DNA of 64,000 bases from Plantactinospora mayteni (lineage in GTDB: Bacteria; Actinomycetota; Actinomycetes; Mycobacteriales; Micromonosporaceae). How positions within the stretch are numbered: the stretch's first letter is position 1; every line of letters starts with the position of its first letter. The stretch covers positions 62,001 to 126,000 of the forward strand of contig NZ_BONX01000003.1 in the NCBI RefSeq assembly GCF_016862935.1, given 5' to 3'. The notes below the pieces were generated by a model, which was not told the DNA's origin, did no database searches, and saw only the letters and a program-made list of their open reading frames with translations. A program made the position numbers and the translations under genes. Below are positions 37,689-55,195 of the stretch, piece by piece.

Positions 37689-38654
37689 TCAGGCGATAGC
37701 CGCCGCATCGCGCTGGCGGGGGCCCGACTCGACCGCCCCGGCCACCCGTTGCGCCCACTGCTCCCAGTCGTCGAACTCCAGAAACCGGCCCAGCCGCGCG
37801 AGCTGCGCCAGCGGGTCGTCGACGAGTTCCTCGTACGTCATCCGCAACAGGTCCCGCGGCCCGGCATCGGCGATGGCCTGCTCGGCCTCGCTGGTGAGGA
37901 ACGCGCACAACCCCCGGTAACGCTGGACGTCCTGGCCACGCTCGCTCATCGTCTCGGCGGTCAATCGGCTCGGCAGGTAGCGCTCCAGCTCCTCCGGCAC
38001 CTGCTGGTCGGCGCCGACTTCGAACGGGTCGATCCCGTACTGGCCGAGAAACTCCAGCCTGAGCTGGAGAAGCTGGAAGGAGGAGTGCCGGCTCATCGAC
38101 CGGGCGGTGTCCTCCCGGTTGCGGGTCAGGTAGACGATTTTCGCGGTGGGGAACTCCTCCAGCAGGTACCGCGCGAGGTGGCTGGAACCGCCCGAACGCT
38201 CGACCCACCGCCGCCGGGCGGCGAGCGAGGTGAGCAGGTCCAGGAACATCTGATGGTGCCGAGCCAACGACTGAGCCGGAAACCCGGGCACCAGTTCGGC
38301 GAGCATGTCGAACAGGTGGTCCGGGTCGGACGAGATCTTCGGCAGCGTGGTCGCGAGGACCCGGGGCAGCTCGACGAGGTTGCCGGCCCATCGACCGTCG
38401 GCCGGGTAGCACACCTCGGCCGGGCCGAGGCCGATCCGGAACAGCGTGGCGAGTTCCGGTCTGGGGCTGCTCAACCGTGACCAGTATTCGGCTCCGCTGA
38501 GCACCCCTCTGGCGCCGGTCCAGGTCTCCACCGACGCGAAGAACTCATGGGCCGAGAGGGTGTCGGACTGCTCGGCGACCAAGTCGGACAGCAGCGTCGA
38601 CCCGCACCGACCGGTACTGATGATGATCGCCTGGCCAGCGGGCGGTGACTCCAT
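37689..38654 (-). CDS. Sulfotransferase-family protein
   Basis: A 321-aa cytosolic PAPS-dependent sulfotransferase, last gene of the megasynthase operon. ATG 38654 has GAGGAGG seven bases upstream. The 5'-phosphosulfate loop is AIIISTGRCGSTLLSDLVAEQ, and the 3'-phosphate motif is AKIVYLTRNREDTARSMSRHSS. The middle part (LPRVLATTLPKISSDPDHLFDML and HHQMFLDLLTSLAARRRWVERSGGSSHLARY) fits the family. With hydrolase, ACP and synthases upstream, it probably sulfates the product or a releasable acyl intermediate. In some PKS systems such sulfation primes decarboxylative release, but the adjacent hydrolase is not fused here and the idea is untested. Confidence 0.85.
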   Translation of the reverse strand: MESPPAGQAIIISTGRCGSTLLSDLVAEQSDTLSAHEFFASVETWTGARGVLSGAEYWSRLSSPRPELATLFRIGLGPAEVCYPADGRWAGNLVELPRVLATTLPKISSDPDHLFDMLAELVPGFPAQSLARHHQMFLDLLTSLAARRRWVERSGGSSHLARYLLEEFPTAKIVYLTRNREDTARSMSRHSSFQLLQLRLEFLGQYGIDPFEVGADQQVPEELERYLPSRLTAETMSERGQDVQRYRGLCAFLTSEAEQAIADAGPRDLLRMTYEELVDDPLAQLARLGRFLEFDDWEQWAQRVAGAVESGPRQRDAAAIA

Positions 38655-38740
38655 CGAAGGTCCTCCTCTGCGATGCGGATCAGTGAGCGAAATCAGTAAG
38701 CGGAGTCAGTGAGTCGATCAGTGAGCGGATCAGTGGGTGG
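38655..38740. repeat. Degenerate 12-13-bp tandem repeats
   Basis: Copies of ATCAGTGAGCG, with one or two changes, start at about 38679, 38692, 38705, 38717 and 38729. The array fills the gap between the sulfotransferase and hydrolase genes and enters the end of the hydrolase frame. Confidence 0.6.
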
Positions 38741-39611
38741 TCGCCGGGGCGGACGGCTGATCCCGACCGTCCTGACCGGAGAGCCCGGTGTGGCCCGGCT
38801 GGCCGGGTGGAAGGCCGCAGTCCTCGCGTAGCCAGGACAGCACGATGTCGCGTACGGCAGCCGGCTGGTCGACGAGGAGGGAGTGCCGCTGGCCGGGTAC
38901 GGTGACGAACCGCGCCCGCGGCAACAGCCGCCGGGCCTCGGGGACCAGTCCGACCACGGGCGAGGCGCCGCCGTACACCCACAGCACCGGGCAGCCGATC
39001 GCGGCGATCACCTCCTCCGCCGGTAGCCGGCTGGCCGGCAGGTCGCGTACGAGGCTCGTGCCGGCGAGCACCTCCCGGGCGGTCCTGGCCCGACGGCTGG
39101 CGAGTTCCCCGCGTTCGGCCCTGATCTCGGCGAGCGCGTGTTCACGCGGCAGGTACGCGGCGGCGTGGTCGAGCTGCTGGGCCACCTGCTCGAACCACGC
39201 CGCCGTGGGCGGGGAGGACTCGATCGCGGCGATGGCGGTGACCCGCTCGGGGTGTCGTACCGCGTAGCCGAACGCGATCGTGCCGCCGAAGGAGTTGCCG
39301 AACAGGTGGATCGGGCCGGTCACGTCGAGCGCGGCCAGCAGCGCCGTCAGGTCGTCGACGAAGTCGTCCAACGCGTAGCCTTCCGGCGGGCGTTCGGTGT
39401 GCCCGTGGCCGCGCAGGTCGTACATGATCACGCGGAGGCCGGCGGCGGCGAGCGGATGGGCGAGGGTGAGATACCAGCTGGCCAGGGTGTCCGTGGTCAG
39501 GCCGTGGATCAACACGGCGGTCGGTGCGGCACCGTGCCGGCCGGCGACCGCTTCGGCTGGGGCGACTTCCTCCACGTGCACGGACAGCCCGTTGGCCCGA
39601 ACCATACTCAT
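38730..39611 (-). CDS. Alpha/beta-hydrolase
   Basis: A 293-aa hydrolase of the fold used by thioesterases and esterases. ATG 39611 (MSMVRANG) has GGAG seven bases upstream and overlaps the stop of a short coupling ORF (ATGA). It has the oxyanion loop VLIHGLTTDTLASW, a Ser nucleophile in IHLFGNSFGGTIAFGYA (GNSFGG), the acid in VLWVYGGASPVVG (Asp is not evident at the usual place) and the histidine in FVTVPGQRHSLLVD. It lies between the ACP and sulfotransferase in the megasynthase operon, so release of the acyl chain or product editing is the likely job. It has no signal peptide. Confidence 0.85.
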   Translation of the reverse strand: MSMVRANGLSVHVEEVAPAEAVAGRHGAAPTAVLIHGLTTDTLASWYLTLAHPLAAAGLRVIMYDLRGHGHTERPPEGYALDDFVDDLTALLAALDVTGPIHLFGNSFGGTIAFGYAVRHPERVTAIAAIESSPPTAAWFEQVAQQLDHAAAYLPREHALAEIRAERGELASRRARTAREVLAGTSLVRDLPASRLPAEEVIAAIGCPVLWVYGGASPVVGLVPEARRLLPRARFVTVPGQRHSLLVDQPAAVRDIVLSWLREDCGLPPGQPGHTGLSGQDGRDQPSAPATTH

Positions 39612-39691
39612 GCCGGCACTCCGCTTCGCTCCATGCCGCCACGAGGCACACACACCCTGAACCACACGATTCGCTCGCCAAGCTCGCTCAT
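39608..39691 (-). CDS. 27-codon coupling ORF (copy B of an 84-nt intergenic module)
   Basis: A frame beginning MSELGERIVW and ending MERSGVPA. Its ATG overlaps the ACP stop (ATGA, 39691-39688) and its TGA overlaps the hydrolase ATG (39611-39608). It has the same length as copy A at 8813-8896. I count 57 of 84 identical bases without gaps, 22 of the first 24, and 11 of 27 residues identical. GCCGGCATGAG occurs at both edges of this copy. Probably a coupling element; peptide function unknown. Confidence 0.6.
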   Translation of the reverse strand: MSELGERIVWFRVCVPRGGMERSGVPA

Positions 39692-40044
39692 GCCGGCGTA
39701 CCCGCTCTGCCCTGGCTGGTGTCTACGGTGCCGACGCTGGTGTCCGGGGTGCCGCTGGCTTCCGTCCGGTCGAGCGCGGCGGCGATGTGTTCGACGAGCT
39801 GGCCGACCTGTAGTTGCCGGATCGAGTCCAGGTCGAGGCCGGCCACGAGCTGGGCGAGGTTGACCGCGTCGCCGTAGCGCCCCTGTAGACGACCGGCGAG
39901 GGAGACGACGTCGATGCTCTCCATCTCCAGGTCGTCCTGGAACCTGGTCGCCATGGTGATCTCACCGTCGACTCCGGCGTCGTCGAGGATCGCGTGCAGC
40001 ATCTCGCCAACCTCGGCGAGGATCACGGCCCGGTCCACAGGCAT
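39688..40044 (-). CDS. Discrete acyl carrier protein
   Basis: A 118-aa carrier protein; ATG 40044 follows AAGGGA. It is helical and acidic: MLHAILDDAGVDGEITMATRFQDDLEMESIDVVSLAGRLQ carries the phosphopantetheine serine in E-S-I-D, where many ACPs have D-S-L. The rest, VNLAQLVAGLDLDSIRQLQVGQLVEHIAAAL, matches helices III-IV. The C terminus is a short Thr/Gly/Ser tail. It lies 27 nt after the second synthase, which carries its own PPTase and could load it. As the megasynthase already has two internal ACPs, this one may serve an accessory or offloading step. Confidence 0.85.
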   Translation of the reverse strand: MPVDRAVILAEVGEMLHAILDDAGVDGEITMATRFQDDLEMESIDVVSLAGRLQGRYGDAVNLAQLVAGLDLDSIRQLQVGQLVEHIAAALDRTEASGTPDTSVGTVDTSQGRAGTPA

Positions 40045-40071: not shown

Positions 40072-43000
40072 CTACGGGCGGCCGGTTCGGTGGGCAGGCT
40101 CCGGCCCCCAGGTCCAGCCGACGACGTACCGCCGTACCGGCAGGTCTTCAGGATTCGCCACGTCTCGGTGCGCGACCTGGTAGACGCGGTCGCCGACCTC
40201 GACGATCAGCGTGCTCGGGTTGGCGTCCACCACCGCGAACCGGCCCGGGTCCCCGGTGAGGCCGGTGCCCTCCGCCTTGGCGGCGGCTTCCTTCGCGACC
40301 TGGAAGCGGGCGAGCCACGGGGACAGGTCCTCGCCGGTCGCCACCGAGGCGAGCAGCCGCCGTTCCGGTTCGGACAGCGCGGCCATGACCGTGCCGTCCG
40401 GCTGGTCCGCGATCTCGGCGACGTCGATGCCGACGCCGGGGGCACCGGGCGGTGCGTCGGGCGGGCGGGGCTTCGCGATCGCCACTCCGACCTCGGCCGT
40501 GTGGGCGAGTGAGACGTGACAGTCGCGGAAGCCCCGACCGGGCCGCAGGCGTACCCGGGGCCGGCCGTTCGGCTCGTTCGTGACGGTCAACTCGATCGGG
40601 TAGACGTCGGTATGGCCGGCTTCCCACTGCTGGAAGCGGACGGCGTCCTTGACCGCGATCCGGCCGAGCAGCCAGTGCTTGCGTTCCCTGGGCGGCTGCC
40701 GCTCGTAGTCGGCGTAACCGCTGGTACCAAGGATGCCGCGAGCGGCCATGCCGCGGGTGACCAGGTCCGTCCAGCAGTCGAAGGCCATGTTCCAGCCCTC
40801 CGGTTGGCGCAGCGACATCGGATTGCGCTCGGGAAAGCGCTCCGCCGGACGGGCTGTGGGATGGCTGTCGAACCGCCGGTCGACGCAGCCCTCGATCTGT
40901 GCCCACACCCGGCCGTCGACGGAGAGCTGGGTGTCGGCGACGAGTTGCCGGTCGTCGATCGAGCGCACCCGGGCCACGCACTCGAGCGTCGTACCGGGCG
41001 CCGGTGACGGCCCGAAGAACCGGACGTGGCCGAACTCCATCGGCAGCGCCACGGTCCGCACCGGCTGCGTCGTGATGAGCCAGTTGCCGACCAACTGGAG
41101 CGCGTTGTCGAGCAGCGCGCCGGGCGGGGCCGGGGCGGTCACCACGCCACGGACGTGCATGTCGCCGAGGGCGTGCACCTTTGTCACGCCCCGGAACAGG
41201 GGACCGTGGAACATCAGGCGTTCGGCGTACATCTCGTCGGCGGGCAACTCTGGCGGGCGCTCGGTGGCCGGGTCGTACCGCCAGACCGCCGGAGGGTCGG
41301 CCGGGTAGTCCGGCGCCACCTCCACCGTCGCGCGGGCGTAACCGTCGAGGACCACATCGAGTCGGCCCGGTCCGACCGGCTGGGCAGTGATCTCGACGTC
41401 CTGCGGCGGCGCCGCGATCAACCAACGGTTGAACCGCGCGGCGCGTACCCCGACCACCCGGGTACCCGGGGCGGCCTGCTCGGCGGCGTCCACCATGTGC
41501 TGGACGACGGTGGTGGCCGGTACCACCGGCCAGCGGTCCTCCGCGTCGGGCCAGTCGTCGGGTTGGACGAAGAAGCAGTGGTCACGCAGGTACGGCATGG
41601 TGTCGAGGGCGACCCGCAGGACCGTGCGGTACGGGCGCGGCGGTGGTGTCGGGGTCGTCTGCCCGGTCCCACCATCGGTGGCCTCGACGGCCGGTGTGGC
41701 GGAGAGCAGCGTGGCGAGTTCCGCCGCAGCACTGGAGTGGCCGGCGAGCCTGTGCAGCGTGGCCAGGGCCGACGATCCTGGCAGCGCCGCATCGGCCGGC
41801 GCCACCACCGAGCCCTGCGCCGACCCGGAGTCCTGCACCGTTATCGAGGCCCGCGCCGGCACGGAATCCTGCGCCAGTGTCGAGGCCCGCGCCGGCACGG
41901 AATCCTGCGCCGGGACGGAGTCCTGCGCCATTGTCGAGGCCCGCGCCGGCACGGAGTCCTGCGCCGTTGTCGAGGCAGGCGCCGGCACGGAGTCCCGCGC
42001 CGTTGCCGAGGCCCGCGCCCCCACGGAGTCCTGCGCCGGGACGGGGACGGCTCCTTCCACAGCGGCTGAGCCGGGTCTGCCCGCTACCTCGATCGGGCTG
42101 GACGTGGCGCCGGCGCCACCGGCGTCCTCCGGGCTGCCGCCCGGCGCGAGGTGCACCGAGACGCCGAGCAGACCGTCGGCTCCCTCCCCGAGGCGGACCA
42201 GCGGGCCACCGAGGTCGAGCCGCACGGTCGGGCCTCGGCGGGCGGGCTGGGCGGTGGCGGGCGCCGTGACCCGGGTACGCGCGGCGAGGACGCGCAGGTC
42301 CGGTGCGGCGCCCTCGACCCACAGTGCGGTGGCGACCCGGCGCAGTTGGTCCAGCCCGCTGCGGTGCGTGACGTTGACCGGCATGGCGAGGTGGTCGCGG
42401 CCACGCAGGTTGTCGCCGATGACCGAGGCGAGCTGTCCGGCGCCGACCTGTAGGAACACCCGGACGCCGGAGTCGTACATGGCCCCGACGGTCTGCCGGA
42501 ACCAGACCGGTTCGAGCATGTGCCGGACGAAGATCTCCAGTACCCGGGCCGGCTCGGTGGGGAACGGCGCCCTGAGCGTGCTGGACCAGACGGGTACCCG
42601 GGTGGGGCGGACCTGCCAGCGACGCAGGGCCGCGCCGATCGACTCCAACCCGGACGCGAACATCGGCGTGTGGAAGGCAGAGCGGAACGGCAGCTTCTGG
42701 CAGAGCAGGCCGTCGTCGCGGAGCGCCTCGACGAGCAGTTCTATCTCGCTCTCGGGTCCGTTGACGATGCACTGGGCGGGCGCGTTGTCGTGGGAGAGCG
42801 CCACCCCCGGGAAGCTGGCGAGTCGCGGGGTGACCTGTTCCGCGGCCCCGCCGATCACGGCGAACGCGCGGCCGGGCACCTCGACCGACGTCGAGTTGAA
42901 CGCGGCGAGGAACTCGTCGATGGATGCCGAGCTGACCTGCCCGGTGGTGGCCGCGGCGGTCCATTCACCGATGCTGTGCCCGGCGACCGCGTGCGGGGTG

Positions 43001-45033
43001 ATTCCGATCCGGCGCAGGGCGTCGTCGAGCAGCCTGCCGACCTCGATCACGCCGGTACCGTGCCGGCCGAGATCGTCGGCGGACCACTGCCGGTCCGGCA
43101 GACCGAAGTGCGCCGCGATGTCCGCGGTGCGCGGACTGAACTCCGCCTCGAGCCCGGGATACACGAAGGCGAGCTGCCCACCGGAGTCGTCGGCGAGCAG
43201 TGGGGTGGGGCTGAACCAGATGTCCCGGGCACCGCGCCAGGACTGTCCTCTGGCGACGGCTCGCCGGGCGGTGCCGAGGCGTTTGGGGTCGGGGCTGACG
43301 ATGCCGAGCCGGCAGCGTTCGTCCGGCGCCAGCGGCCGTACGCCGGCGTGGGCGGCCTGACGCGCCCGGGCGGCACCGAGGAGGCGTACGTCGTGATCGT
43401 CGGTGTCGAGCAGGCGGGCGAGCGCGGCCGGCTCGGGGGCGGCCAGCCACAGCACCTCGTCGGGCTGCTCGACGGTGACCCGTACCGTGGCCGGACCGCC
43501 CACCTCCCCAGCGGCAACGGACTCCACTGCGGCAACGGACTCCCGCACGGCCATGGACTCCGCTGCGGGCACCGGCACCCGCCCGGTCACCGGGCCGGCC
43601 GAGCCCGTGCCGCCCCGCCGGTCCGCGAATGCGTCCGGGGTCTCCTCCAGGACCACGTGGGCGTTGATGCCGCCGAAGCCGAACGCGTTGACGCCGGCTC
43701 GGCGCGGTCCGTCGCTCTCCCACGGCTGGGCGGTGGTGATCGGCGCGAACCGGGTACGCTCCAGCTCCGGCCGCGGCGTGTCGCAGTGCAATGTCGGCAG
43801 CAGCACACCGCGGTGCACGGCCAGGGCCGCCTTGACCAGGCTGGCGATCCCGGCCGCCGGCATGGCATGGCCGATCATCGACTTCACCGAACCGATCACC
43901 GGTCGTGCCCCACCCCGATGCGGACCGAACACCTCGGCGACGGTGGTGAGTTCGGCGCCGTCCCCGGTCGGCGTCGCGGTGCCGTGCGCCTCCAGCAGGC
44001 CCAGCGCGTCCGGTGCGGTCGGGTCCAGCCCGGCCGCCGCCCAGGCTTGCCGGACGGCCAACACCTGACCGGCGCTGGCCGGATTGACCATGCTCGCGGC
44101 CCGCCCGTCGCTGGACATCCCGCTGCCGCGGATCACCGCGTACGTCCGGTCGCCGTCGCGCACCGCGTCGGCCATCCGCTTGAGTACGACGACCCCGGTG
44201 CCCTCGCCGATGAGCAGCCCGTCCGCCGAGCTGTCGAACGGCCGGATCTCGCCCCGTCGGGAGAGGGCGCCGAGTTGGCTGAACACGGACCAGAAACTGA
44301 TGTCGTGCACGTGGTGTACGCCACCGGCGAGAACCGCGTCGAGCCGGCCGCTGTTCAGCTCGCCGATCGCCTGGTCCACCGCGATCAGCGACGAGGCGCA
44401 GGCGGCATCCAACGTGTACGCGGGCCCGAGCAGGTTGAGCCGGTTGGCCACCCGGGAGGCGGCCAGGTTCGGCACCAGTCCGATCGTCCCCTCCGGCTGA
44501 TGCTTGCCGAGCCGCTCGTCGAACCTCGCCCGTACCGCGTCCAACCGGCTCTCCGGCAGGTCCGGGATCAACTCGCGGAGCACCTGGATGACCTGGCTGG
44601 ACATCCGCACCCGCTGCGCGTACCGGGCCTGGGCCGGGCTGAGGATGCCACCCCGGCCGAATATCACCCCCACCCGCTCACGGGCGGGCAGCCGGTCCAT
44701 TCCCCCGGCGTCCTCGATCGCCGCCGCCGCGACGTTCAGCGCGATGAGCTGGTCCGGCTCGATCTCGGCGATGGACGCCGGCATGATGCCGAACTTGAGC
44801 GGATCGAAGGTGGCCAGGTCGTCGACGAACCCGCCCCGACGGCAGTAGAGCCGGTCCGGCCGGTCTGCCCGGTCCGGGTCGTAGAACTCCGCGTCCCATC
44901 GGTGCGGCGGCGTCTCGGTGATCGCGTCGACGCCCTCGACCAGGTTGCGCCAGTAGCTGTCCAGGTCACCCGCGGCCGGCAGCAGCACCGCCATCCCCAC
45001 GATCGCGACCGGGTCACCGGGCATGCCGGTCAC
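40072..45033 (-). CDS. PUFA/enediyne-like polyketide synthase subunit KS-AT-DH-PPTase
   Basis: A 1653-aa multifunctional synthase. GTG 45033 overlaps the stop of the first synthase (GTGA). KS (about 5-470) has active-site DAACASSLIAVD, EAHGTATPTGD and GSVKSMIGHAMPAAG, all catalytic residues present. AT-like domain (about 620-930) has GHSIGEW. A low-complexity linker with A-Q-D-S-V-P-A-R-A-S repeats (about 990-1080) follows. The dehydratase-like double hotdog (about 1140-1410) has DHCFF but lacks the usual HxxxGxxxxP spacing; HGPLFRG and LLDNALQ are present. The C-terminal PPTase (about 1450-1650) has GVGIDVAEIAD and FQVAKEAAAKAEGTGL. No ACP is present, so it must act on carriers of the partner protein or the discrete ACP. 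Confidence 0.88.
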   Translation of the reverse strand: MTGMPGDPVAIVGMAVLLPAAGDLDSYWRNLVEGVDAITETPPHRWDAEFYDPDRADRPDRLYCRRGGFVDDLATFDPLKFGIMPASIAEIEPDQLIALNVAAAAIEDAGGMDRLPARERVGVIFGRGGILSPAQARYAQRVRMSSQVIQVLRELIPDLPESRLDAVRARFDERLGKHQPEGTIGLVPNLAASRVANRLNLLGPAYTLDAACASSLIAVDQAIGELNSGRLDAVLAGGVHHVHDISFWSVFSQLGALSRRGEIRPFDSSADGLLIGEGTGVVVLKRMADAVRDGDRTYAVIRGSGMSSDGRAASMVNPASAGQVLAVRQAWAAAGLDPTAPDALGLLEAHGTATPTGDGAELTTVAEVFGPHRGGARPVIGSVKSMIGHAMPAAGIASLVKAALAVHRGVLLPTLHCDTPRPELERTRFAPITTAQPWESDGPRRAGVNAFGFGGINAHVVLEETPDAFADRRGGTGSAGPVTGRVPVPAAESMAVRESVAAVESVAAGEVGGPATVRVTVEQPDEVLWLAAPEPAALARLLDTDDHDVRLLGAARARQAAHAGVRPLAPDERCRLGIVSPDPKRLGTARRAVARGQSWRGARDIWFSPTPLLADDSGGQLAFVYPGLEAEFSPRTADIAAHFGLPDRQWSADDLGRHGTGVIEVGRLLDDALRRIGITPHAVAGHSIGEWTAAATTGQVSSASIDEFLAAFNSTSVEVPGRAFAVIGGAAEQVTPRLASFPGVALSHDNAPAQCIVNGPESEIELLVEALRDDGLLCQKLPFRSAFHTPMFASGLESIGAALRRWQVRPTRVPVWSSTLRAPFPTEPARVLEIFVRHMLEPVWFRQTVGAMYDSGVRVFLQVGAGQLASVIGDNLRGRDHLAMPVNVTHRSGLDQLRRVATALWVEGAAPDLRVLAARTRVTAPATAQPARRGPTVRLDLGGPLVRLGEGADGLLGVSVHLAPGGSPEDAGGAGATSSPIEVAGRPGSAAVEGAVPVPAQDSVGARASATARDSVPAPASTTAQDSVPARASTMAQDSVPAQDSVPARASTLAQDSVPARASITVQDSGSAQGSVVAPADAALPGSSALATLHRLAGHSSAAAELATLLSATPAVEATDGGTGQTTPTPPPRPYRTVLRVALDTMPYLRDHCFFVQPDDWPDAEDRWPVVPATTVVQHMVDAAEQAAPGTRVVGVRAARFNRWLIAAPPQDVEITAQPVGPGRLDVVLDGYARATVEVAPDYPADPPAVWRYDPATERPPELPADEMYAERLMFHGPLFRGVTKVHALGDMHVRGVVTAPAPPGALLDNALQLVGNWLITTQPVRTVALPMEFGHVRFFGPSPAPGTTLECVARVRSIDDRQLVADTQLSVDGRVWAQIEGCVDRRFDSHPTARPAERFPERNPMSLRQPEGWNMAFDCWTDLVTRGMAARGILGTSGYADYERQPPRERKHWLLGRIAVKDAVRFQQWEAGHTDVYPIELTVTNEPNGRPRVRLRPGRGFRDCHVSLAHTAEVGVAIAKPRPPDAPPGAPGVGIDVAEIADQPDGTVMAALSEPERRLLASVATGEDLSPWLARFQVAKEAAAKAEGTGLTGDPGRFAVVDANPSTLIVEVGDRVYQVAHRDVANPEDLPVRRYVVGWTWGPEPAHRTGRP
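41800..42060 (-). repeat. Coding tandem repeat in the synthase linker
   Basis: Repeats of about 39 nt encode variants of AQDSVPARAST; five to seven copies lie between the AT and DH domains of the second synthase. Copies differ in length (one is a short AQDSVP unit), so the array probably expands and contracts by recombination. Confidence 0.8.
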
Positions 45034-48000
45034 CAGCCCGACGCGGTGTAGACGACGGAGGTGAGCGTCGGGTCGCCCCAGGCCAACTCCCTCAGCAGGC
45101 TCTGTGCGCCTTCCTCCGGGTCGATCAGGCCGATGCCGCGCCGGGCGAGTTCCCGGCCCAGTTCCGGGCTGACCATGCCGCCGTGCCCCTCGGCCGGCGC
45201 CCACGGCCCCCAGTGCACCGTCAGGCAGCGGTTGCCGGTCCGGGCCGCCCATCGGGCGCCCATCGTCTCCAGGGCGTCGTTGGCTGCCGCGTAGTCGCAC
45301 TGGCCACGGTTGCCGAACACCGCCGCGATGCTGCCGTAGAACACGACGAACCTCGGACGACTGCCGAGGGCGTCCAGCGCGTCCAGCACCGACCGGGCGC
45401 CCGTCACCTTCGTGTCGAAGACCCGGCCGAACGACTCAGGATCCTTGTCGACGATCAGCTTGTCCTCGATCACGCCGGCGGCGTACACCAGCCCGTCGAT
45501 GCGGCCGTACTGATCGTGGATCGCGGTGATCAACCGCTCGGTCGCCTGCGCGTCGCGGGCGTCCAGGTTGTGGTAGCGCACTCTGGCGCCCAGTTCACCG
45601 AGTTCCCGCACGGTGGCCTCGACCTCACGGCCGGCGAGGACCCCCTGGGCCGCGCGGGCGATCGCCGCCGGGGAGCCGATCCGCTGGCGCGCGAGCACCG
45701 CCCGCACCGCCGCCGCGTCGGTGGCCGTCGCCAGGGCCGGATCCGGGGGGCCGGACGGCAACGGGGTACGGCCGGCAAGCTCGATCCGGCACCGGGCAGC
45801 CGACGCGAGGGCACGGGCGACCCAGGAGGTGATGCCACGGGCGCCGCCGATCAGCAGCACCACCGAGTCGCGGTCCAGTCCCATCGCCCGCGCCTCCGCC
45901 ACGCCGTCGCCGGCCGGGCCGGCACCACCGGCCGCCAGCGCCCCGAGGCTCGCCGGCATCAGGTCGTACCCGGACCGCCGGCCGCCGCGCCGGTTCACCA
46001 CCGCCGCCTCGCCCCCGACCAGCATCTCGTCGACCAGTGTCTGGGCGAGCCGCTCCGCGGGCTCCGTACCGTCCACGACGACCAGGCGCGAGCTGATCGA
46101 CGGGTGCTCCCGGCCGATGGTGCGGAACAGGCCGCGCAGCCCGTCCGCCTCCGCACCGGCGTTCGGGTCGGCGACCGCCAACACCCGGGGCACCCCGCCG
46201 GTCACTGCCCTCTTGATCAGCTCGAACGCACCCGGGAGCACCGGTGCCTGCCCGCTGGCCAGCCCGTCGAGCAGGACCAGCCCGTCCGCCCCGTCCAGAC
46301 TGCCGGGCTCGGCCGCGCTGCCGATGCGTACGGTCGCCCCGTGTCCACGTAGCAGGTCGACCAGCCGTACGGCGGCCGGTGCGGGTCCGCTGACCACCAG
46401 CGTGCTATCCGCGAGCGCCGTCGCTGGTTGCCTCGGTGCCTCCGGGACCGAAACCATCGTGGCTAGCATCCGCGTCGGCGCGACACCGAGCGACGTGGCA
46501 CCGTCCACCGGTCTCGGGCCGCCCACCGCCGTCACCGGCGCCGGGGCCGGTGACGGGGTCGGTGACGGGGCCGGGTGCTGCTGCCCGGCGGGCACCGCCA
46601 CGGCCGGTCCGGTACGCGCCCGTACCGGTGCGGCGGACGACACCTCGGCCACGGCCGGTCGGGCGGCCTCGGTCGAGGACCGTACGGGGACCGTGGCGGC
46701 CACGGCGTCGTTCACCCGGTTGGTGAGCCAGTCGACCATCGCCCGTACGGTCCGGGCCTTCACCAGCCCCTCCAGCTCCGACTCATCGCCGTCGGCCGAC
46801 AGGCCGAGCCGGGTGGTCACCTCGCCGGCCACCTCCGCCCGCTTGATCGAGTCGATGCTGAGATCGGCCTCCAGATCCAGGTCGAGTTCGATCAGGTCGG
46901 CCGGATAACCGGTCCGCTCGCTGAGTACCACCAACACGGCGGCCTGGAAGTCCCTCGCGATCGGCATCGCGTCCCCGCCCGGTGCCGGCGAGACGGCCGG
47001 GGCGACGGGCCCGCCGGCCGGCGGCGCCACGGCGGCGACGTTCGCCGTCATCGTCCGGGCCGCCGGGGCGACGCCGACGGCCGCCGGAGGGGCAGCCACC
47101 GCACCGTTCGCCACCGGAGATGCCACGGCGTCGTTCACCCGGCTGGTGAGCCAGTCGACCATCGCCCGTACGGTCCGGGCCTTCACCAACCCCTCCAACT
47201 CCGATTCATCGCCCTCGGCCGACAGGCCGAGCCGGGTGGCCACCTCGCCGGCCACCTCCGCCCGCTTGATCGAGTCGATGCTGAGATCGGCCTCCAGATC
47301 CAGGTCGAGTTCGATCAGGTCGGCCGGATAACCGGTCCGCTCGCTGAGCACCACCAACACCGCGGCCTGGAAGCCGAGCCCCGACGGCTCCGTCGCGAGC
47401 GTGCCAACCGGTACGGCGGCCACGGCGCTCCCGGTGCCACCGCCAGCGCCGGCTCCTCCGCCGCTGATGCTGACTCCTCCGGCCCCGATGCCGGCTCCTC
47501 CGGCGCCGGTGCTGGCTCTTCCGTTGCCGGGCGGCTCGACCATCGGCACCGTGACCGACGTCGGCCCGGCCGGGAGGGGCACGGGTGGGCTGCCCGTGGC
47601 CGGCGCCGGCGAGATGGACCGGGCCTGACTCACCGGCGCCGGCAGGATCGGTACGGCATGGTTCGCCACCGGCGTTGGCGTTGGCGTTGGCGTGACCCGT
47701 ACCGGCGGGCCTGCCGTGACGGCTGTGGTCTCGACCGGTGGGCCTGCCGGATGGTGGTTCCCCGGTAACCGTCCGACGAGATGTCCGCCGCCGGTGCTGC
47801 CGAGGTAGGCGAGCATGACGTCGTGCTGAGCGGCGATCAACTCGCGATTGGTCCGGAGGAATTCGGCGAGCAGTTCGTCCCGCCCATCCCGCCGGTCACG
47901 GTCGTCGCTGCCACCGGCCGTGGGCCCGACTGTTGCGATCATGGACAACTCCTTGCTGCGTCGCGGGGGCGTCATGCCGCCCGGGAGGCTGCCTCCGTCG

Positions 48001-51000
48001 CGGTCGCGGACGAGCTGCCCGTCGACGGTCCAGAAGGGGCGGTCGTCGGGCTCGGTCGTGCCCGCCACGACGGTGTCGCGGCCGTGGTAGAGCCAGCCGG
48101 TCTGTACCGGTACCCCGGTGCAGGCGAGCTGTGCCACGGCGATGAGGAAGTCCCGGAGCCCTTCACCGGTACGCCGGTCGCAGGCCACGGCGAGGTGTGG
48201 CCGGTCGGCGAGGACGGCCTGGACCAGGCCGGTCAGCACCTGCCCGGGTCCGGCCTCGACGAAGGTACGGGCGCCGGCTGCGTACATGGCTTCGATCTGT
48301 TCGACGAAGCGGACCGGGGCACCGAGCTGGGCCGCGAGTTCGTGCCGCAGCTCGTCGGCGTCCACCGGGTAGGCGGTGGCGGTGCGGTTGGCCCAGACCG
48401 GGATGGTGGGCGCGGCGACCGGTTGAGCGGCGAGCACCTGCGCGAAGTGATCGACGGCGGTGGCGACGAGGGGGCTGTGGAACGCGCAGGCGACGTTGAG
48501 CCCGCGAGCCGTCAGACCGGCGGCCTTGAGCGCCGAGATCGCCGCCCGCACCGCCGGGGTGCGGCCGGAGATCACCTGCTGGGTGGGTGCGTTGCTGTTG
48601 GCCAGGACGACCTGCTCGGCAAGGCCGGAACTGGCCAGAACCGCGCCGACCCGGTCGGCGGTGGCGGTGACCGCGGCCATGGTGCCCGGATCGGTCTCCG
48701 GACCGTCACCGACGGCGGCGAGGATCGCGTCGGCGCGCTGCCGGCTGAGCCGCAGCAGGGTCGACGGGTCGTACGCGCCGGCCGCGCAGAGCGCGACGAG
48801 TTCGCCGTAGCTGTGTCCCGCGGTGAGGTCGGGGTGGATGTTGAGCCGGCGGAGCAGGTGGTCGACGGCGAGCCCGCCGATGCCGAGTACGGGCTGGGCC
48901 ACCCGGGTGTCGCGGAGCCGGTCCTGCTGGGCGCCCTCCGTGGCGGTATCGAACGCGCTCGGCGGGAAGAGCAGGTCAGCCCACTCCTGGCCGAGCCCGA
49001 GATACTGGCGCAGCTCGGGAAAGGTGACGAACAGGTCGGTCAGGGCGCCGGGATGTTGACTGCCCTGCCCGGGGAAGAGGAACGCGACCTTCCCGGCGGC
49101 GGTGCCGGATCCGGTGTGCTGCGGTGGCGGCTGGACGAGTCCCTGTCCGGGATCGTGCTCGCCGGCGAGCGCGCGGTTCAGCAGCAGATCGAGTTCGGTG
49201 ACGTCCCGGGCGACGATCGCGACCTGGGCCTCTCCCGAGCGTGGGTCGGCCTGGGCGGCGGCCGTACCGGCCAGGTCACGTAGCCGCCACGGCCGGCCGT
49301 ACCGGTCGGTGGTCCGCAGCGTGGCGGCCAGCTTCCGTACGCCCCGGTGCGCCGCGGCCCGGTCGGGGCCCCGGAAGCAGAACAGCTCCGCCGGCCACTC
49401 CTGGCGCGCGTGGCGCGGTTCCGGGGTACGCGGGTGCGCGGCGAGCACCACGTGGTAGTTGGTGCCGCCGAAGCCGAAGGCGCTGACCCCGGCGAACCGC
49501 TCGCCGGGCGGGGCGCTCCAGGGGCGGGCCGAGGTGTTGAAGGCGAACGGGCTGCGCTGCGGGTCCCAGGCCGGATTGGGGCGGCTCAGGTTGATGGTCG
49601 GCGGCCGGACCCCGGTGTACAGCGCGAGAGCCGTCTTGATCACACCGGCGAGCCCGGCGGCGCACTTCGTGTGGCCGATCTGCGACTTGACCGAGCCGAG
49701 CGTACAACTGCCCGACCGGGCCCCCGACTCGACGAAGAACCTGGTCAGGGTCTCCAACTCGGTACGGTCCCCGACGACGGTGCCGGTGCCGTGCGCCTCG
49801 ACCAACCCGACCTGTCGCGGGGAGATGCCGCTGCGCGCGTACGCCCGGTCGAGCGCCCGGCGCTGCCCCTCGGCGCGCGGCGCGGTCAGGCCCAGCGCGC
49901 GCCCGTCGCTGGACCCACCGACCCCCTTGACGACGGCGTAGATGCGGTCACCGTCGCGCTCGGCGTCGGCGAGCCGCTTGAGTACGACACAGGCGACCCC
50001 CTCGCCGAGGGCGATGCCGTCGCCGGTGCTGTCGAACGGGCGGCACCGACCGGTGGGCGACAGCGCGTGCGCCGAGGTGAACATCAGGTAGTCGTTGATG
50101 CCGTTGTGCAGATCGGCGCCGCCGCAGATCATCAGGTCGCTGCTGCCCGCCGCCAGCTCCTTGCACGCCGCGTCCATGGCCGCCAGCGACGAGGCGCAGG
50201 CCGCGTCCACAGTGAAGTTCGGTCCGCCCAGGTCCAGTCGGTTCGCGACCCGCCCGGCGATCACGTTGGCCAGCATGCCGGGGAACGAGTCCTCGGTGAC
50301 CCTGGGCAGCTGGTTCTCCAGCTCGGCGGGGACGTCGCCGAAGTACGCCGGCAGCATGGTACGCAGTGTCTGCGCGTGTCCCATGTCGCTGCCCGCCTCG
50401 GCACCGAACACCACCCCGGTACGGGAGTGGTCGACGCCCGGCACGTCGTAGCCGTACCCGGCGTCAACGAGGGCCCGGTGCGACGCCTCCAGGGCCAGCA
50501 GTTGGGTCGGGTCGATGCTCGCCAACGCCGCCGGCGGGATGCCGTACCGGATGGCGTCGAACGGCACCGGCGCGATGAACGCGCCCCACTTCGACACGCT
50601 GATCCGGCCCGCCCGGCCCGGCGCCACCTCGGACGCGTAGTAGGTCTCCACCGGCCATCGCTGGGCGGGCACCTCCCGGATGGCGTCGCGACCGCCGAGA
50701 ATCGTCTGCCAGAAGCTGGGCAGGTCCGGCGAGTCCGGAAAGACGCAGGACATGCCGACGATGGCCACGTCCAGCGGGGCCACCGGCACCGGTGCGGCCC
50801 GGACGGTCTCCGGCTCGGGCGTCGCGGCCAGCGCGGCTCTCCGCTCGGCGTGCAGGCGCTGCGCCCCGACGGTCACCCCGGCGTGCAGGTCGGCCACGGT
50901 CGTCCGCGTGTCACGCAGCACGGCCACCTGGCCCGCCATGAAGAGCCCTTCCGCGTGCTGACCCGCCTCGTCCACCGCGACCAGCGCGTCCCCGTCGCGC

Positions 51001-52748
51001 CGTCGGCCCTTGCTGGCGATCCGCAGCCGGCCGACGTTGAGCATCTCCAGCCGTTCCCACACCTGCCGGCCGGCCGCCCCCGCCGCCGCCAGCTCCTGCC
51101 GCACCCGGTGGAAGTCGTCGACGTACGGGCTGGGCAGGCAGCGGGTGACGTGTCCCGGCGCCGTCTCCAGCATCGCCGTACCGGTCGCCGCGATCGCCTG
51201 GCGCTGGAACAGCGGCTGGATCGCCCCGCAGTCGACCGCCTCCCTCGTGAAGAGGTAGGCGGTGCCCAGCAACACCCCGACCTGTACGCCGCGCCGCGCC
51301 AACGGCCCCGCCAGCGCCGCCACCATCGCCGCCGAACGGGCGTCGTGGATGCCACCGGCGAAGAACACCTGCACCTCACCGGCGGTACCGGCTGGGGCGC
51401 TGTCGAGGAAGTCCGCCAGGGTCAGCGCCTGCGCCTCCCAGAGCGGAAAGCTCGTCCGCGGCCCCACGTGCCCACCGCACTCGGCGCCCTCGAACACGAA
51501 TCGCCGCGATCCGGCGCGGAGGAACTGCCGCAACAGGCCCGGCGACGGTACGTGCAGGAACGTGGTGATGCCCTCGGCCTCCAGTGCCTTGGCCTGCCCT
51601 GGCCGACCGCCCGCGATGATCGCCACCCGGGGCCGGACCTCCCGCACCGCCGCGAGTTGCGCGGCTCGTACCTCCTCCGGGACGAACCCGAGCACCCCCA
51701 CTCCCCAGGGCCGCTCGCCCAGCGCCCGCGCGGCCTCCCGCAGCATCCGTTGGGACTGTTCGCCGCTGGCCAGGGCGAGCGCGACGAACGGCAGCGCGCC
51801 GTCACCGGCCACCGCCGCCGCGAACGCCGCCACGTCGCTGACCCGCGTCATCGGCCCCTGCGCCACCGGGATCCGCACCCCGAGCGCCCGCGCCAACGGC
51901 GAACCCGGGGCCAGCAGTTCGCCCGGGACGTCGTCGGTGAGCGCGTCGTCGATCTCCGCACGGATGCCGCGCACCGCGGCGGCCGTACTTCGCCAGCGCT
52001 CCCGGAACACCGCCGCCAACCAGCCGTCCTGACCGACCGGGAGCAGCTCGGCGGTGCCGTCCGGCCGACCGTCCCGGCGTACGCCCCGCACGCCGTCGCG
52101 CAGCACCGTCTCCGAGCCGTCCATCCGCGCGATCACGGCCCGCACGTCCTCCGGCAGGTCCGACTCCGGCATCAGCGCCAACTGGTCGTCCAGGACCACT
52201 CCGGTCGCCCCGCCGACCACACACGCGGCGGCGGTACGCGGCCCGATCCCGCCGGCCACCCAGATCGGCAGGTCCAGCGCCTCGTCGGCGAGCAACTGCT
52301 GCAACAGGACGAACGAACTCAGCTCGCCGCCCCGTCCGCCCGACTCCGAGCCGCGGGCGATCAACCCGTACGCACCGGCGGTGGCCGCCGCGCGTGCCTC
52401 CGTACGACTGGTCACCTCCGCCAGCACTCGGTACCGCCCGGCGGCCTCACCCACCGGCCACGGGCTGTCCGGCGGCAACACCACCTGGCCAAGGTTGCCC
52501 TTCGCGGCCCGCTCCACATCCGTCATCGCAGCGGCACAACCCGCCGGGATCCGTACCCCGATCGGCGTCGCCGACCACGACGCCGCCTGTTCCAGTGCCC
52601 ACAACGCCCGGGGGTCGCCCCGGGCAAGATCGAGCACGCCCACCCCGCCGCCGCTACCGGCGGCCGCCACGATCCGTGGACCAGGCTCGACCCCGCCGCA
52701 CGGGTTCACCACGATGACCGGATCACGCCCGGCGGTTGCAGTACTCAT
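45030..52748 (-). CDS. PUFA-synthase-like megasynthase: tandem FMN reductase-like barrels-KS-AT-ACP-ACP-KR
   Basis: A 2572-aa synthase, first gene of a probable 15-kb operon. ATG 52748 (MSTATAGRDP) is chosen; GTG 52793 is possible. Residues about 1-640 hold two nitronate-monooxygenase/PfaD-like barrels: the first with VAGGIGPRTAAACVVGGATGV, the second with FEGAECGGHVGPRTSF and FFAGGIHDARSAAM. KS (660-1100): DAACASSLAAMD, EAHGTGTVVGD, GSVKSQIGHTKCAAG. AT (1220-1540): FLFPGQGSQHPG and GHSYGELVAL. Two nearly identical ACPs (about 1792-1875 and 1933-2016) each carry LSIDSIKRAE. KR (2290-2560): LLIGGARGITSW, YGSIAAVFG and DYAAANDALE (S-Y-N). It should build and reduce a chain iteratively with its partner. 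Product unknown; streptomycete PUFA-like loci are the nearest known kind. Confidence 0.88.
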   Translation of the reverse strand: MSTATAGRDPVIVVNPCGGVEPGPRIVAAAGSGGGVGVLDLARGDPRALWALEQAASWSATPIGVRIPAGCAAAMTDVERAAKGNLGQVVLPPDSPWPVGEAAGRYRVLAEVTSRTEARAAATAGAYGLIARGSESGGRGGELSSFVLLQQLLADEALDLPIWVAGGIGPRTAAACVVGGATGVVLDDQLALMPESDLPEDVRAVIARMDGSETVLRDGVRGVRRDGRPDGTAELLPVGQDGWLAAVFRERWRSTAAAVRGIRAEIDDALTDDVPGELLAPGSPLARALGVRIPVAQGPMTRVSDVAAFAAAVAGDGALPFVALALASGEQSQRMLREAARALGERPWGVGVLGFVPEEVRAAQLAAVREVRPRVAIIAGGRPGQAKALEAEGITTFLHVPSPGLLRQFLRAGSRRFVFEGAECGGHVGPRTSFPLWEAQALTLADFLDSAPAGTAGEVQVFFAGGIHDARSAAMVAALAGPLARRGVQVGVLLGTAYLFTREAVDCGAIQPLFQRQAIAATGTAMLETAPGHVTRCLPSPYVDDFHRVRQELAAAGAAGRQVWERLEMLNVGRLRIASKGRRRDGDALVAVDEAGQHAEGLFMAGQVAVLRDTRTTVADLHAGVTVGAQRLHAERRAALAATPEPETVRAAPVPVAPLDVAIVGMSCVFPDSPDLPSFWQTILGGRDAIREVPAQRWPVETYYASEVAPGRAGRISVSKWGAFIAPVPFDAIRYGIPPAALASIDPTQLLALEASHRALVDAGYGYDVPGVDHSRTGVVFGAEAGSDMGHAQTLRTMLPAYFGDVPAELENQLPRVTEDSFPGMLANVIAGRVANRLDLGGPNFTVDAACASSLAAMDAACKELAAGSSDLMICGGADLHNGINDYLMFTSAHALSPTGRCRPFDSTGDGIALGEGVACVVLKRLADAERDGDRIYAVVKGVGGSSDGRALGLTAPRAEGQRRALDRAYARSGISPRQVGLVEAHGTGTVVGDRTELETLTRFFVESGARSGSCTLGSVKSQIGHTKCAAGLAGVIKTALALYTGVRPPTINLSRPNPAWDPQRSPFAFNTSARPWSAPPGERFAGVSAFGFGGTNYHVVLAAHPRTPEPRHARQEWPAELFCFRGPDRAAAHRGVRKLAATLRTTDRYGRPWRLRDLAGTAAAQADPRSGEAQVAIVARDVTELDLLLNRALAGEHDPGQGLVQPPPQHTGSGTAAGKVAFLFPGQGSQHPGALTDLFVTFPELRQYLGLGQEWADLLFPPSAFDTATEGAQQDRLRDTRVAQPVLGIGGLAVDHLLRRLNIHPDLTAGHSYGELVALCAAGAYDPSTLLRLSRQRADAILAAVGDGPETDPGTMAAVTATADRVGAVLASSGLAEQVVLANSNAPTQQVISGRTPAVRAAISALKAAGLTARGLNVACAFHSPLVATAVDHFAQVLAAQPVAAPTIPVWANRTATAYPVDADELRHELAAQLGAPVRFVEQIEAMYAAGARTFVEAGPGQVLTGLVQAVLADRPHLAVACDRRTGEGLRDFLIAVAQLACTGVPVQTGWLYHGRDTVVAGTTEPDDRPFWTVDGQLVRDRDGGSLPGGMTPPRRSKELSMIATVGPTAGGSDDRDRRDGRDELLAEFLRTNRELIAAQHDVMLAYLGSTGGGHLVGRLPGNHHPAGPPVETTAVTAGPPVRVTPTPTPTPVANHAVPILPAPVSQARSISPAPATGSPPVPLPAGPTSVTVPMVEPPGNGRASTGAGGAGIGAGGVSISGGGAGAGGGTGSAVAAVPVGTLATEPSGLGFQAAVLVVLSERTGYPADLIELDLDLEADLSIDSIKRAEVAGEVATRLGLSAEGDESELEGLVKARTVRAMVDWLTSRVNDAVASPVANGAVAAPPAAVGVAPAARTMTANVAAVAPPAGGPVAPAVSPAPGGDAMPIARDFQAAVLVVLSERTGYPADLIELDLDLEADLSIDSIKRAEVAGEVTTRLGLSADGDESELEGLVKARTVRAMVDWLTNRVNDAVAATVPVRSSTEAARPAVAEVSSAAPVRARTGPAVAVPAGQQHPAPSPTPSPAPAPVTAVGGPRPVDGATSLGVAPTRMLATMVSVPEAPRQPATALADSTLVVSGPAPAAVRLVDLLRGHGATVRIGSAAEPGSLDGADGLVLLDGLASGQAPVLPGAFELIKRAVTGGVPRVLAVADPNAGAEADGLRGLFRTIGREHPSISSRLVVVDGTEPAERLAQTLVDEMLVGGEAAVVNRRGGRRSGYDLMPASLGALAAGGAGPAGDGVAEARAMGLDRDSVVLLIGGARGITSWVARALASAARCRIELAGRTPLPSGPPDPALATATDAAAVRAVLARQRIGSPAAIARAAQGVLAGREVEATVRELGELGARVRYHNLDARDAQATERLITAIHDQYGRIDGLVYAAGVIEDKLIVDKDPESFGRVFDTKVTGARSVLDALDALGSRPRFVVFYGSIAAVFGNRGQCDYAAANDALETMGARWAARTGNRCLTVHWGPWAPAEGHGGMVSPELGRELARRGIGLIDPEEGAQSLLRELAWGDPTLTSVVYTASGW
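46701..47373 (-). repeat. 250-bp direct repeat encoding tandem ACP domains
   Basis: 46701-46950 and 47124-47373 align without gaps at an offset of 423 bp; I count about eight differences, near 97% identity. They encode the two ACPs. The proline/alanine-rich segments between them are not conserved. This suggests recent duplication or gene conversion. Confidence 0.9.
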
Positions 52749-53350: not shown

Positions 53351-55195
53351 ATGGACAGGACCAGGATTGCCCGGTCTCTGCTCTCCACCGCCGCCGCCAC
53401 CTTCGTGGCGACCTCGCTCGCGCTCGCCGCCATGCCGGCCGCCCGTGGCGCCGCCCCCGACAGCGAATCAGCCGTCGACGGCGAACCACGGGCGGAGAAG
53501 CGCCTGGAAGACGACAAGCCGCTCGAAGCCAACCCGGCGCTGACGGCGCCGGGCATCGCGCCGGAACTGCTGGCGAAGGCCGCACCGGACGAGTGCTTCG
53601 GCGGGAGCAGCCCGCCGCCCAGGGCCTGGGCCGGATGCGAGGACGGGCAGCCGAAGGTGAACCAGTCGTACGTGTGGGGCCTGGCGGCATCCGGCGACAA
53701 CCTGTGGTTCGGGACGGCGCCCAACGTGCAGTGCCTGACGATCGGGACAAGTCTCGCGGTGACCGCACCGATCGAGAACGACGACTACGTGTGCGAGTAC
53801 GGCGAGAGCCCGCAACGGTCGGAGAACCCGGCCATCCCGCCGGCCGGGGGTGACTGGCGACCGCCGAAGATCTACGTCTACAACAAGCCGACCCGCAAGA
53901 TGGTGGACAAGACAGCAGCCATCAGGGGGAGGTCTGAGGTCGACCGGCAACGGTTGGAGTCGACGGTGGGAATTCGTGCCGCCGGCTCACACCAGGGCGT
54001 CGTGCTGCTCGGCGGACCGAGCATCCTCGGCCTGAACCTGTTCGCGTTCGACGGTACGTCGGGCAGGTACCTCGGGTCGACAACCCTCCCCGCATATGGC
54101 ACCATCCGGAACTTCCTGGTCGCCGACCACGCTCTCTACGCCGGTGTGGGTATGGGGATCGACGGTCAGGCCGGCGGAGCGGTGCTGCGCTGGGCCGGCA
54201 GCAAGCGCAGCCCGTTCGCCTTCAGCATGGTCGCCAGCCTGCCGCAGCAGGTCGCGGACCTCGTGGTGCACAAGGGTCGGATGTTCGTCACGACCTGGCC
54301 CAGCGTCGCCCGCAGCTTCGACAGCGAACACACCGCCGGCGTCTGGATGAGCCCATACCTGGTGGACGGGAGCCGGGGCCTCACCACTGCCGACATCAAC
54401 GCCTGGAAACAGGTGTGGAACGTGAGCCAGTACGAGCCCGACCCGGTCGTCGCCGCGACCTACGGCCTCGGCGGTCTCGCCTCGTATGACGGGAACCTCT
54501 ACTGGGGGACGATGCACGTGCCGATGAAGGCCGCGCAGGCCCACACGACACGCTACGCGCCGGAGAGCGAGGCGCAGAACCTCCTCGCCACGAAGAACAC
54601 GCAGCGGAGCGCTAGCATCTTCCGGGCCAGCAGGTTCGACAAGGGCAAGGCCACGGCCGACCTGCTGTACGGCGCGGCGGAGCTGCCCGCGTTCGACCCG
54701 GAGGCGAATAACGGGGCGGGCGACTGGCAGCTCAAACCGACCGGATACAAGCCCAGGTACGGCGCGGCGGGATTCGGCAGCAGCTACAACAACTACACCT
54801 GGAAGATGCTGGTGGCCGGGGGTTCGCTCTACATCGGCACGATGGACTGGAGCTACCTCGTCAAGGATCTGCCGGTGGAGCTCCGCAGCGCGGTCGAGGG
54901 CGGGCTCGGCGCGGTCGATCCCGCGTCGTACGGCGGCGACCTGTGGGAGTTCGACGGCACGAACGGGCCGGCCAAGCCGGTGGACACCAGCGGGGTCGGC
55001 AACTACCTCAACTACGGGATCCGCACGATGGTGGTGGACGGACCAGCCGTCTACCTCGGCATGGCGAACCCGATGAACCTGAGGACCGACCGGAGTGACG
55101 ATATCCCGGAGGGCGGTTGGGAGCTGATCCGGCTGCCCGGGGCCAACGCCCCGTCCACCGCCAAGGAGAAGACGGCCGTCGGCGCGCAGCGGTGA
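53351..55195 (+). CDS. Secreted protein of unknown function, propeller-like
   Basis: A 614-aa exported protein; ATG 53351 follows AAAGGA. The signal peptide is ARSLLSTAAATFVATSLALA, cleaved near AARGAA. The mature part has repeated segments of the kind found in beta-propellers: YVWGLAASGDNLWFGTAPN, HQGVVLLGGPSILGLNLFAFDG, LFVADH-like VADHALYAGVGMGIDG, GNLYWGTMHVPM and GGSLYIGTMDWSYLV. Several cysteines occur near the N terminus (DECFGG, GCEDG, VQCL, YVCEYG), probably disulfide bonded outside the cell. I recognise no catalytic motif. It is divergent from the synthase operon and could be a product-binding, resistance or unrelated surface protein. Confidence 0.72.
   Translation: MDRTRIARSLLSTAAATFVATSLALAAMPAARGAAPDSESAVDGEPRAEKRLEDDKPLEANPALTAPGIAPELLAKAAPDECFGGSSPPPRAWAGCEDGQPKVNQSYVWGLAASGDNLWFGTAPNVQCLTIGTSLAVTAPIENDDYVCEYGESPQRSENPAIPPAGGDWRPPKIYVYNKPTRKMVDKTAAIRGRSEVDRQRLESTVGIRAAGSHQGVVLLGGPSILGLNLFAFDGTSGRYLGSTTLPAYGTIRNFLVADHALYAGVGMGIDGQAGGAVLRWAGSKRSPFAFSMVASLPQQVADLVVHKGRMFVTTWPSVARSFDSEHTAGVWMSPYLVDGSRGLTTADINAWKQVWNVSQYEPDPVVAATYGLGGLASYDGNLYWGTMHVPMKAAQAHTTRYAPESEAQNLLATKNTQRSASIFRASRFDKGKATADLLYGAAELPAFDPEANNGAGDWQLKPTGYKPRYGAAGFGSSYNNYTWKMLVAGGSLYIGTMDWSYLVKDLPVELRSAVEGGLGAVDPASYGGDLWEFDGTNGPAKPVDTSGVGNYLNYGIRTMVVDGPAVYLGMANPMNLRTDRSDDIPEGGWELIRLPGANAPSTAKEKTAVGAQR

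Follow-up and report, generated by a model that had tools for sequence, protein, structure and literature searches.

The 64,000-nucleotide stretch analysed here (the window) comes from Plantactinospora mayteni (Micromonosporaceae; assembly GCF_016862935.1, contig NZ_BONX01000003.1, forward-strand positions 62,001 to 126,000) and is part of a 9.84 Mb genome, with gyrA and gyrB within about 10 kb. It carries an operon for two large coupled proteins, A and B, with ketosynthase (KS), acyltransferase (AT), acyl carrier protein (ACP), ketoreductase (KR), dehydratase (DH), enoyl reductase (ER) and phosphopantetheinyl transferase (PPTase) domains, together with a discrete ACP, an alpha/beta hydrolase and a sulfotransferase. 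Judging from gene content and conserved residues, we give a roughly even chance, if slightly better, to the reading that this is a Type-M-like secondary lipid synthase which would produce a long-chain, mostly saturated sulfolipid. The operon would represent a natural head-group swap on a conserved lipid synthase, with either a glycosyltransferase or a sulfotransferase at one and the same operon position.

An earlier note, made from the sequence alone, had read the order of domains as barrel-barrel-KS-AT-ACP-ACP-KR in A and KS-AT-DH-PPTase in B, and this was borne out, with its coordinates (Table 1), by Pfam scans (threshold E 0.01) and by the comparison with relatives; domain scans also confirmed that the ER and PPTase activities are fused at opposite ends of the pair and that the discrete ACP, the hydrolase and the sulfotransferase belong to the same operon. 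In protein A, Pfam matched the NMO barrel at residues 286-621, the KS, the AT, the PP-binding domain and the KR, and when residues 1-250 were searched separately the first barrel also matched NMO (7.9e-11, 42.4 bits, cut-off 28). Both barrels retained their glycine motifs. The two ACPs of A are near-identical repeats, and their occurrence in tandem together with a KS and a KR is a trait of secondary lipid synthases. In protein B, Pfam matched the KS, the AT and the ACPS/PPTase domain. The DH of the window protein gave no Pfam match at this threshold; the PS-DH family PF14765 was matched in its orthologue L010 (1.8e-11), in L025 (8.6e-11) and in the DH-PPTase protein of Beijerinckia, L027 (5.7e-11). 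In an alignment of 20 DH-PPTase rows (L014, L015, L017, L018, L021, L041 and L048 left out), the His, the Asp and the Gln of LLDxxxQ in the DH and the GID and KE..K residues of the PPTase were invariant in all rows; a rough regular expression for the PPTase P0 motif matched 2 of the 20, the window not among them, and was not used.

The two genes are joined on the minus strand (...TGGTGACC...) by a four-base GTGA overlap, in which the TGA stop of A and a possible GTG start of B share the same bases, as had been proposed; an alternative start of B is an ATG three codons downstream. Relatives of the DH-PPTase end were found at 64-81% identity in 16 named loci, so that the two-protein arrangement is not a matter of chance. 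A locus of the same genus (L009) is that of Plantactinospora endophytica NBRC 110450.

A KS phylogeny had been suggested as a check on kinship with polyunsaturated fatty acid (PUFA) synthases, and a maximum-likelihood tree was built from 80 of the 88 KS domains found, rooted at the midpoint only. The search covered frames of at least 300 aa; short loci duplicating longer ones were omitted, and so were the rows of L026, L008, L003, L017 and L020, which were duplicates or nearly so. L014 and L015 had no KS, and L078 and L079, added afterwards, stand outside the tree. KS-A formed a clade of 24 rows (support 100/99) inside a clade of 35 (99/96) that also held seven PUFA-type KSs, two Type P KSs and two others; together with the Beijerinckia and Methylosinus KSs and the two others, KS-A made up 28 rows (97/88) apart from the seven PUFA-type KSs. 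The kinship of KS-A is thus with the PUFA/secondary-lipid family, beside phenolic-lipid-type synthases, as far as the sequences tell, and the PUFA-family kinship claimed at the outset was upheld. KS-B fell in a separate clade of 25 rows (100/100), away from PfaC-type KSs. The omega-3 PfaA model TIGR02813 was the top NCBIfam model for both proteins (A 906.9 bits, B 428.2 bits), below its curated cut-off of 1010.1. The catalytic Cys and the EAHGT motif were found in 49 of 49 KS-A and KS-B rows and the second His was seen by eye in the window proteins only, in agreement with the claim that both KSs have intact catalytic residues.

Kinship with ordinary modular type I polyketide synthases (PKSs), named beforehand as the outcome that would speak against this assignment, was dropped, the ten modular KSs clustering together (96/94) away from KS-A and KS-B. 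An enediyne-like (warhead) synthase, to which the earlier note had likened the C-terminal DH followed by a PPTase, is hardly credible. The same genome holds a locus (L068/L075; G000:C23, about 505000-534000) with a KS-AT-KR-DH frame and UnbV_ASPIC and NQR2/RnfD-family neighbours, from which we take L068 to be an enediyne-type PKS. Its KS, labelled modular in the tree, joined neither KS-A nor KS-B, as a single reference with the longest end branch and a placement flagged as unsure by the program; no UnbV/RnfD-type protein of the kind that adjoins L068 was found among the 15 window proteins scanned (26038-56463), and the same DH-PPTase end occurs in the phenolic-lipid-type locus of Beijerinckia. 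Enediyne kinship was accordingly rejected. PDB 7zma was likewise discarded as a special relative of KS-A, its 470 bits being the sum over two ordinary KS domains; no paper was found by PDB id for it or its relatives in the open-licence literature, where absence is weak evidence. As a separate observation, L061 (G109:C31) has fused barrels-KS-AT-ACP-KR, a second protein with KS-AT-ACP, and then ACP-like and alpha/beta hydrolase genes, and looks intermediate.

The exchange of head-group enzymes was read directly from the gene order of 22 loci of the window's branch (including the window; 21 genomes) and 13 loci of the sister branch. The L009 and L078 contigs belong to a single genome, there may be further overlap between named and unnamed loci, and L025 and L026 of the sister branch are near-identical plasmids; the branches were assigned by gene content and afterwards seen as KS clades for the rows present in the tree. 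The ACP and the hydrolase were present in 20 of the 22 loci of the window's branch and in all 13 of the sister branch. The sulfotransferase was found in 20 of 22 (the contigs of L018 and L078 end before it) and in none of the 13, whereas a UDPGT/EryCIII-type glycosyltransferase was found at the same operon position in 13 of 13 and in none of the 22. A gene for an S-adenosylmethionine (SAM) methyltransferase occurred in 6 of the 13 sister loci (0/22 in the window's branch). As the glycosyltransferase occupies the place of the sulfotransferase, they probably serve as alternatives for adding the polar head. Four of the 13 glycosyltransferase-type loci (L062-L065) come from the window's own family; therefore, the split tracks the synthase clade and not the bacterial family. 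The sulfotransferase-type KSs were monophyletic both in KS-A (12 rows) and in KS-B (16 rows), with 100/100 support each, and rows of the glycosyltransferase type branch off to either side of them, so that replacement of a glycosyltransferase by a sulfotransferase would be the simpler reading. A comparison of the two branches should expose the common lipid and the accepting hydroxyl.

Co-occurrence of the sulfotransferase, another check proposed, was surveyed by sequence match in 396 genomes across the phylum and in 200 genomes of the window's family; the latter are related, and Fisher values computed from their co-occurrence counts are not independent evidence. The DH-PPTase end was detected in 9 of the 396 and in 37 of the 200 genomes. 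Of these 37 matches, 32 reached at least 63% identity, four lay at 39-47% and belonged to the glycosyltransferase-type L062-L065, and one was short. All 32 genomes of the first set had the sulfotransferase at 51% identity or more, and with the 20 of 22 loci this ties it strictly to this synthase branch. At 1e-20 a total of 45 genomes gave sulfotransferase matches, the weaker ones in further genomes at 27-38% identity. An orphan sulfotransferase with 61% identity to that of the window was seen in L076 (G552:C2:4276147-4277079), where no other gene of the operon was matched in the surrounding 19 kb.

The second AT had been noted simply as an AT domain; the domain is present, but it is not of the malonyl-loading type. 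In the AT alignment, the malonyl-binding Arg was found in AT-A (24/24), in PUFA-type ATs (7/7) and in Type P ATs (2/2), and in none of the 25 AT-B rows (window included), which have Phe (21) or Leu (4) at this site while retaining the catalytic Ser and His in all 25. Bacterial PfaB, described as a terminal long-chain acyltransferase, likewise lacks the malonyl Arg, carries Tyr where GHSxG has His and is reported not to bind malonyl-CoA (PMC12895367). In three glycosyltransferase-type loci (L045, L046 and L065) the AT-B motif was present and KS-B was not found, the DH and PPTase being located there by tblastn. Because the Arg is absent and AT-B is kept in relatives where KS-B was not found, AT-B is probably a PfaB-like off-loading acyltransferase, which is a new point, and the second KS-AT is predicted to be an off-loading unit. 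In a comparison with PDB sequences, none of the best 60 of 74 matches to AT-B was named PfaB, these being malonyl transferases and ATs of PKSs and fatty acid synthases. L045 and L065 each have one frame of roughly 3300 aa that carries AT-A, the AT-B motif and only one KS, and these look like A and B fused minus KS-B.

From these elements we infer the route, including how long and how saturated the chain is, in what order it is released and sulfated, and its export. The ER barrels, KS, malonyl AT, two ACPs and KR of A would assemble a long acyl chain iteratively with the DH of B, on ACPs activated by the PPTase of B. The chain would be mostly saturated, since A and B together hold a complete KR-DH-ER set and neither gave a match to a DH/isomerase; the last cycle, if incomplete, would perhaps leave a hydroxyl. 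AT-B would unload the completed chain from the synthase, plausibly to the discrete ACP, the hydrolase would release or transfer it and the sulfotransferase would sulfate a hydroxyl, while a secreted beta-propeller protein and a surface esterase may act on the product extracellularly. The earlier note had guessed at a sulfated polyunsaturated or branched lipid. No FabA-type DH/isomerase and no second KS-like domain (chain-length factor, CLF) were matched in A or B (Pfam; the rest of the genome was not searched), so that a cis-polyunsaturated product seems unlikely.

Several points weigh against a saturated sulfolipid made and released in this way. Among the matches listed, the model of the sulfotransferase was nearer to the domains of CurM and olefin synthase than to other bacterial sulfotransferases. 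In those systems sulfate serves as a leaving group: once the chain on the ACP has been sulfated at its beta-hydroxyl, the thioesterase (TE) sets the acid free, and a terminal alkene arises as CO2 and sulfate depart. The ACP, sulfotransferase and hydrolase of the window, which occur together, in separate genes, like the ACP-sulfotransferase-TE series of CurM/olefin synthase and whose sulfotransferase may be close to theirs in fold, could act likewise and yield a long terminal alkene. We consider this unlikely. Fold is no proof of function, and the same hydrolase family is kept in the glycosyltransferase-type sister operons without a sulfotransferase. In searches against PDB, the CurM TE matched the hydrolase at 8.6e-9, below 57 other PDB sequences, and was not one of the 22 sequences that the hydrolase profile picked up at 1e-15, on which grounds TE kinship was rejected. 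Moreover, in 18 aligned hydrolase rows R67 and R74 were the only invariant Arg/Lys and none stood in the lid region. Somewhat less likely again would be a combined version, in which a PUFA-family synthase with a CurM-like ACP, sulfotransferase and hydrolase acting in trans makes very-long-chain 1-alkenes that are secreted with a dedicated propeller, the sulfotransferase having replaced the glycosyltransferase.

The remaining points against the sulfolipid concern AT-B, saturation and precedent. AT-B has GHS in 20 of 25 rows, the window included, and the Tyr of the bacterial PfaB motif GYS in only five; loss of the Arg is no absolute proof either, because, of two PfaBs assayed, one could transfer some malonyl to ACP (PMC12895367). 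Saturation is deduced from domain content only, and Rhodococcus RerA, also described as KS-AT-ACP-ACP-KR-DH, makes polyenes (PMC11563203). No product is named for this layout in the literature examined. A conjugated polyene of the RerA/RerB kind, with the barrels silent or active in early cycles only and the polyene then sulfated, would fit a system that likewise has KS, AT, tandem ACPs, KR, DH and an associated PPTase, but it seems improbable, given that RerA/RerB as described has no ER domain (PMC11563203) and that the glycine motifs are kept in both barrels of the window protein, a double barrel being found in the phenolic-lipid-type gene of Beijerinckia too.

Returning to the sulfolipid synthase, its nearest described counterpart is Type M of the 20 types of secondary lipid synthase distinguished by Shulse and Allen in 2011 (PMC3098273), where Type M covers Frankia, Actinosynnema mirum, Renibacterium salmoninarum and Streptomyces avermitilis, with products listed as uncharacterised at that date. 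The likeness lies in the actinobacterial origin, in the PfaD-PfaA fusion and in a PPTase on the pfaBC-like protein, both fusions as described for Renibacterium-like synthases (PMC13291983), and in the closeness of the PPTase to the synthase; the term Type-M-like is assigned here by described layout, not by named Type M sequences. The novelty that the earlier note saw in the fused layout does not hold: two Flavobacteriales are in print with pfaDA fused and with a PPTase domain on pfaBC, a layout described as closely like that of the Renibacterium synthase, which in 2026 is still called uncharacterised (PMC13291983). The general layout is therefore known, and the differences are the sulfotransferase in the place of the sister branch's glycosyltransferase and the linked secreted propeller, both of which look new, together with the PfaB-like AT-B. 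In the open-licence papers, whose silence is weak evidence, a search that combined sulfotransferases and Micromonosporaceae with PUFA-type or iterative synthases gave no paper. Canonical PfaABCDE systems share the KS-MAT-ACP-KR order (MAT, malonyl AT), the DSIKR ACPs, the PfaD-like barrel and the PfaB-like AT, and differ in that the window has only two ACPs, no CLF or FabA-type domain matched in A or B, and fused ER and PPTase.

Among the nearest KS kin tested was Type P, represented by the ars genes of Azotobacter vinelandii, where it makes C22-26 chains, and by Beijerinckia indica ATCC 9039 (PMC3098273). On the Beijerinckia plasmid pBIND02 a barrel-barrel-KS-AT-ACP-KR gene is accompanied by two genes of the chalcone synthase type and by a separate gene for DH-PPTase, whose 629-aa product gave no KS match; compared with it, the window adds KS-B/AT-B, the ACP, the hydrolase and the sulfotransferase. 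Type P synthases have neighbouring type III PKS genes, and chalcone-synthase-type genes adjoin the synthase in the Beijerinckia and Methylosinus loci. The acyl chain of the window could prime an enzyme encoded elsewhere in the genome, such as a type III PKS, to give a sulfated phenolic lipid like the sulfated adipostatins, as AdpST is described to sulfate alkylresorcinols in a Streptomyces (PMC12135136). We regard this as very improbable; none of the 15 window proteins scanned was a type III PKS (the rest of the window and the genome was not searched).

A secreted protein with a beta-propeller fold is encoded upstream of A on the opposite strand. It was found in 32 of 32 sulfotransferase-type genomes and in none of the 168 others of the family at 50% identity or more (limit 1e-30), G443, outside the 32, having a single match at 33%. 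This near-perfect co-occurrence links the pathway to a family of secreted proteins that has no annotation. In the DNA compared around each locus, the propeller was present in 18 of the 22 loci of the window's branch (0/13 in the sister branch), lying past the sulfotransferase in 16 of them and on the PKS-A side in the other two, the window and L078. A further analysis of the propeller region left out L014, L017, L020 and L041. Searched by sequence against PDB it gave no match at E 1, and by fold it matched many propellers, so that its function cannot be deduced from them. The esterase, usually encoded beside it, was found in 30 of the 32 genomes and in 10 of the 168 others (limit 1e-60). In several genomes belonging to a single genus (G455, G487, G506, G548 and G571) the propeller gene was seen in three neighbouring copies close to the sulfotransferase-type operon.

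Table 1. Features of the operon and its surroundings in the window, with the basis of each assignment (ORF, open reading frame; FMN, flavin mononucleotide; PAPS, 3'-phosphoadenosine-5'-phosphosulfate; PHA, polyhydroxyalkanoate).
Feature	Position	Strand	Basis
Protein A, PfaD-PfaA fusion, barrel-barrel-KS-MAT-ACP-ACP-KR, 2572 aa	45030..52748	-	ORF, domain scan, KS tree
First FMN-type barrel of A, residues about 8-235, GSESGGRGG motif	52044..52727	-	PF03060, 7.9e-11
Second barrel of A, NMO/FabK/PfaD-like enoyl reductase, residues 286-621	50886..51893	-	PF03060; TIGR03151 FabK
KS-A, residues 660-1104	49437..50771	-	Pfam, KS tree, residue alignment
AT-A, malonyl type, GHSYG and conserved Arg	48111..49082	-	Pfam; AT alignment
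Two tandem ACPs with DSIKR, Ser 1826 and Ser 1967	46701..47366	-	Sequence motif
KR, residues 2296-2517	45198..45863	-	Pfam
Protein B, KS-AT-DH-PPTase, 1653 aa	40072..45033	-	ORF, domain scan
KS-B, residues 7-464, Cys and EAHGT intact, own clade	43642..45015	-	KS tree; residue alignment
AT-B, PfaB-like, without malonyl Arg	42442..43023	-	AT alignment
Double-hotdog dehydratase (PS-DH)	40831..41613	-	PF14765 in relatives; alignment
Sfp-type PPTase, GID...KEAAAK	40174..40437	-	Pfam; alignment
Discrete ACP	39688..40044	-	Domain scan
Alpha/beta hydrolase; S107, E131, H243 invariant in 18/18 rows	38730..39611	-	Domain scan; alignment
PAPS-type sulfotransferase, Sulfotransfer_3	37689..38654	-	Domain scan
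Beta-propeller protein, signal peptide by eye	53351..55195	+	Fold match; no Pfam/NCBIfam match
Extracellular PHA-depolymerase-type esterase, lipoprotein-like signal by eye	55426..56463	+	Domain scan

Outside the operon, two tandem overlapping frames of the RlaP family (RNA repair nucleotidyltransferase-like) adjoin gyrB at 30973-32834 of the window and may represent a duplication.
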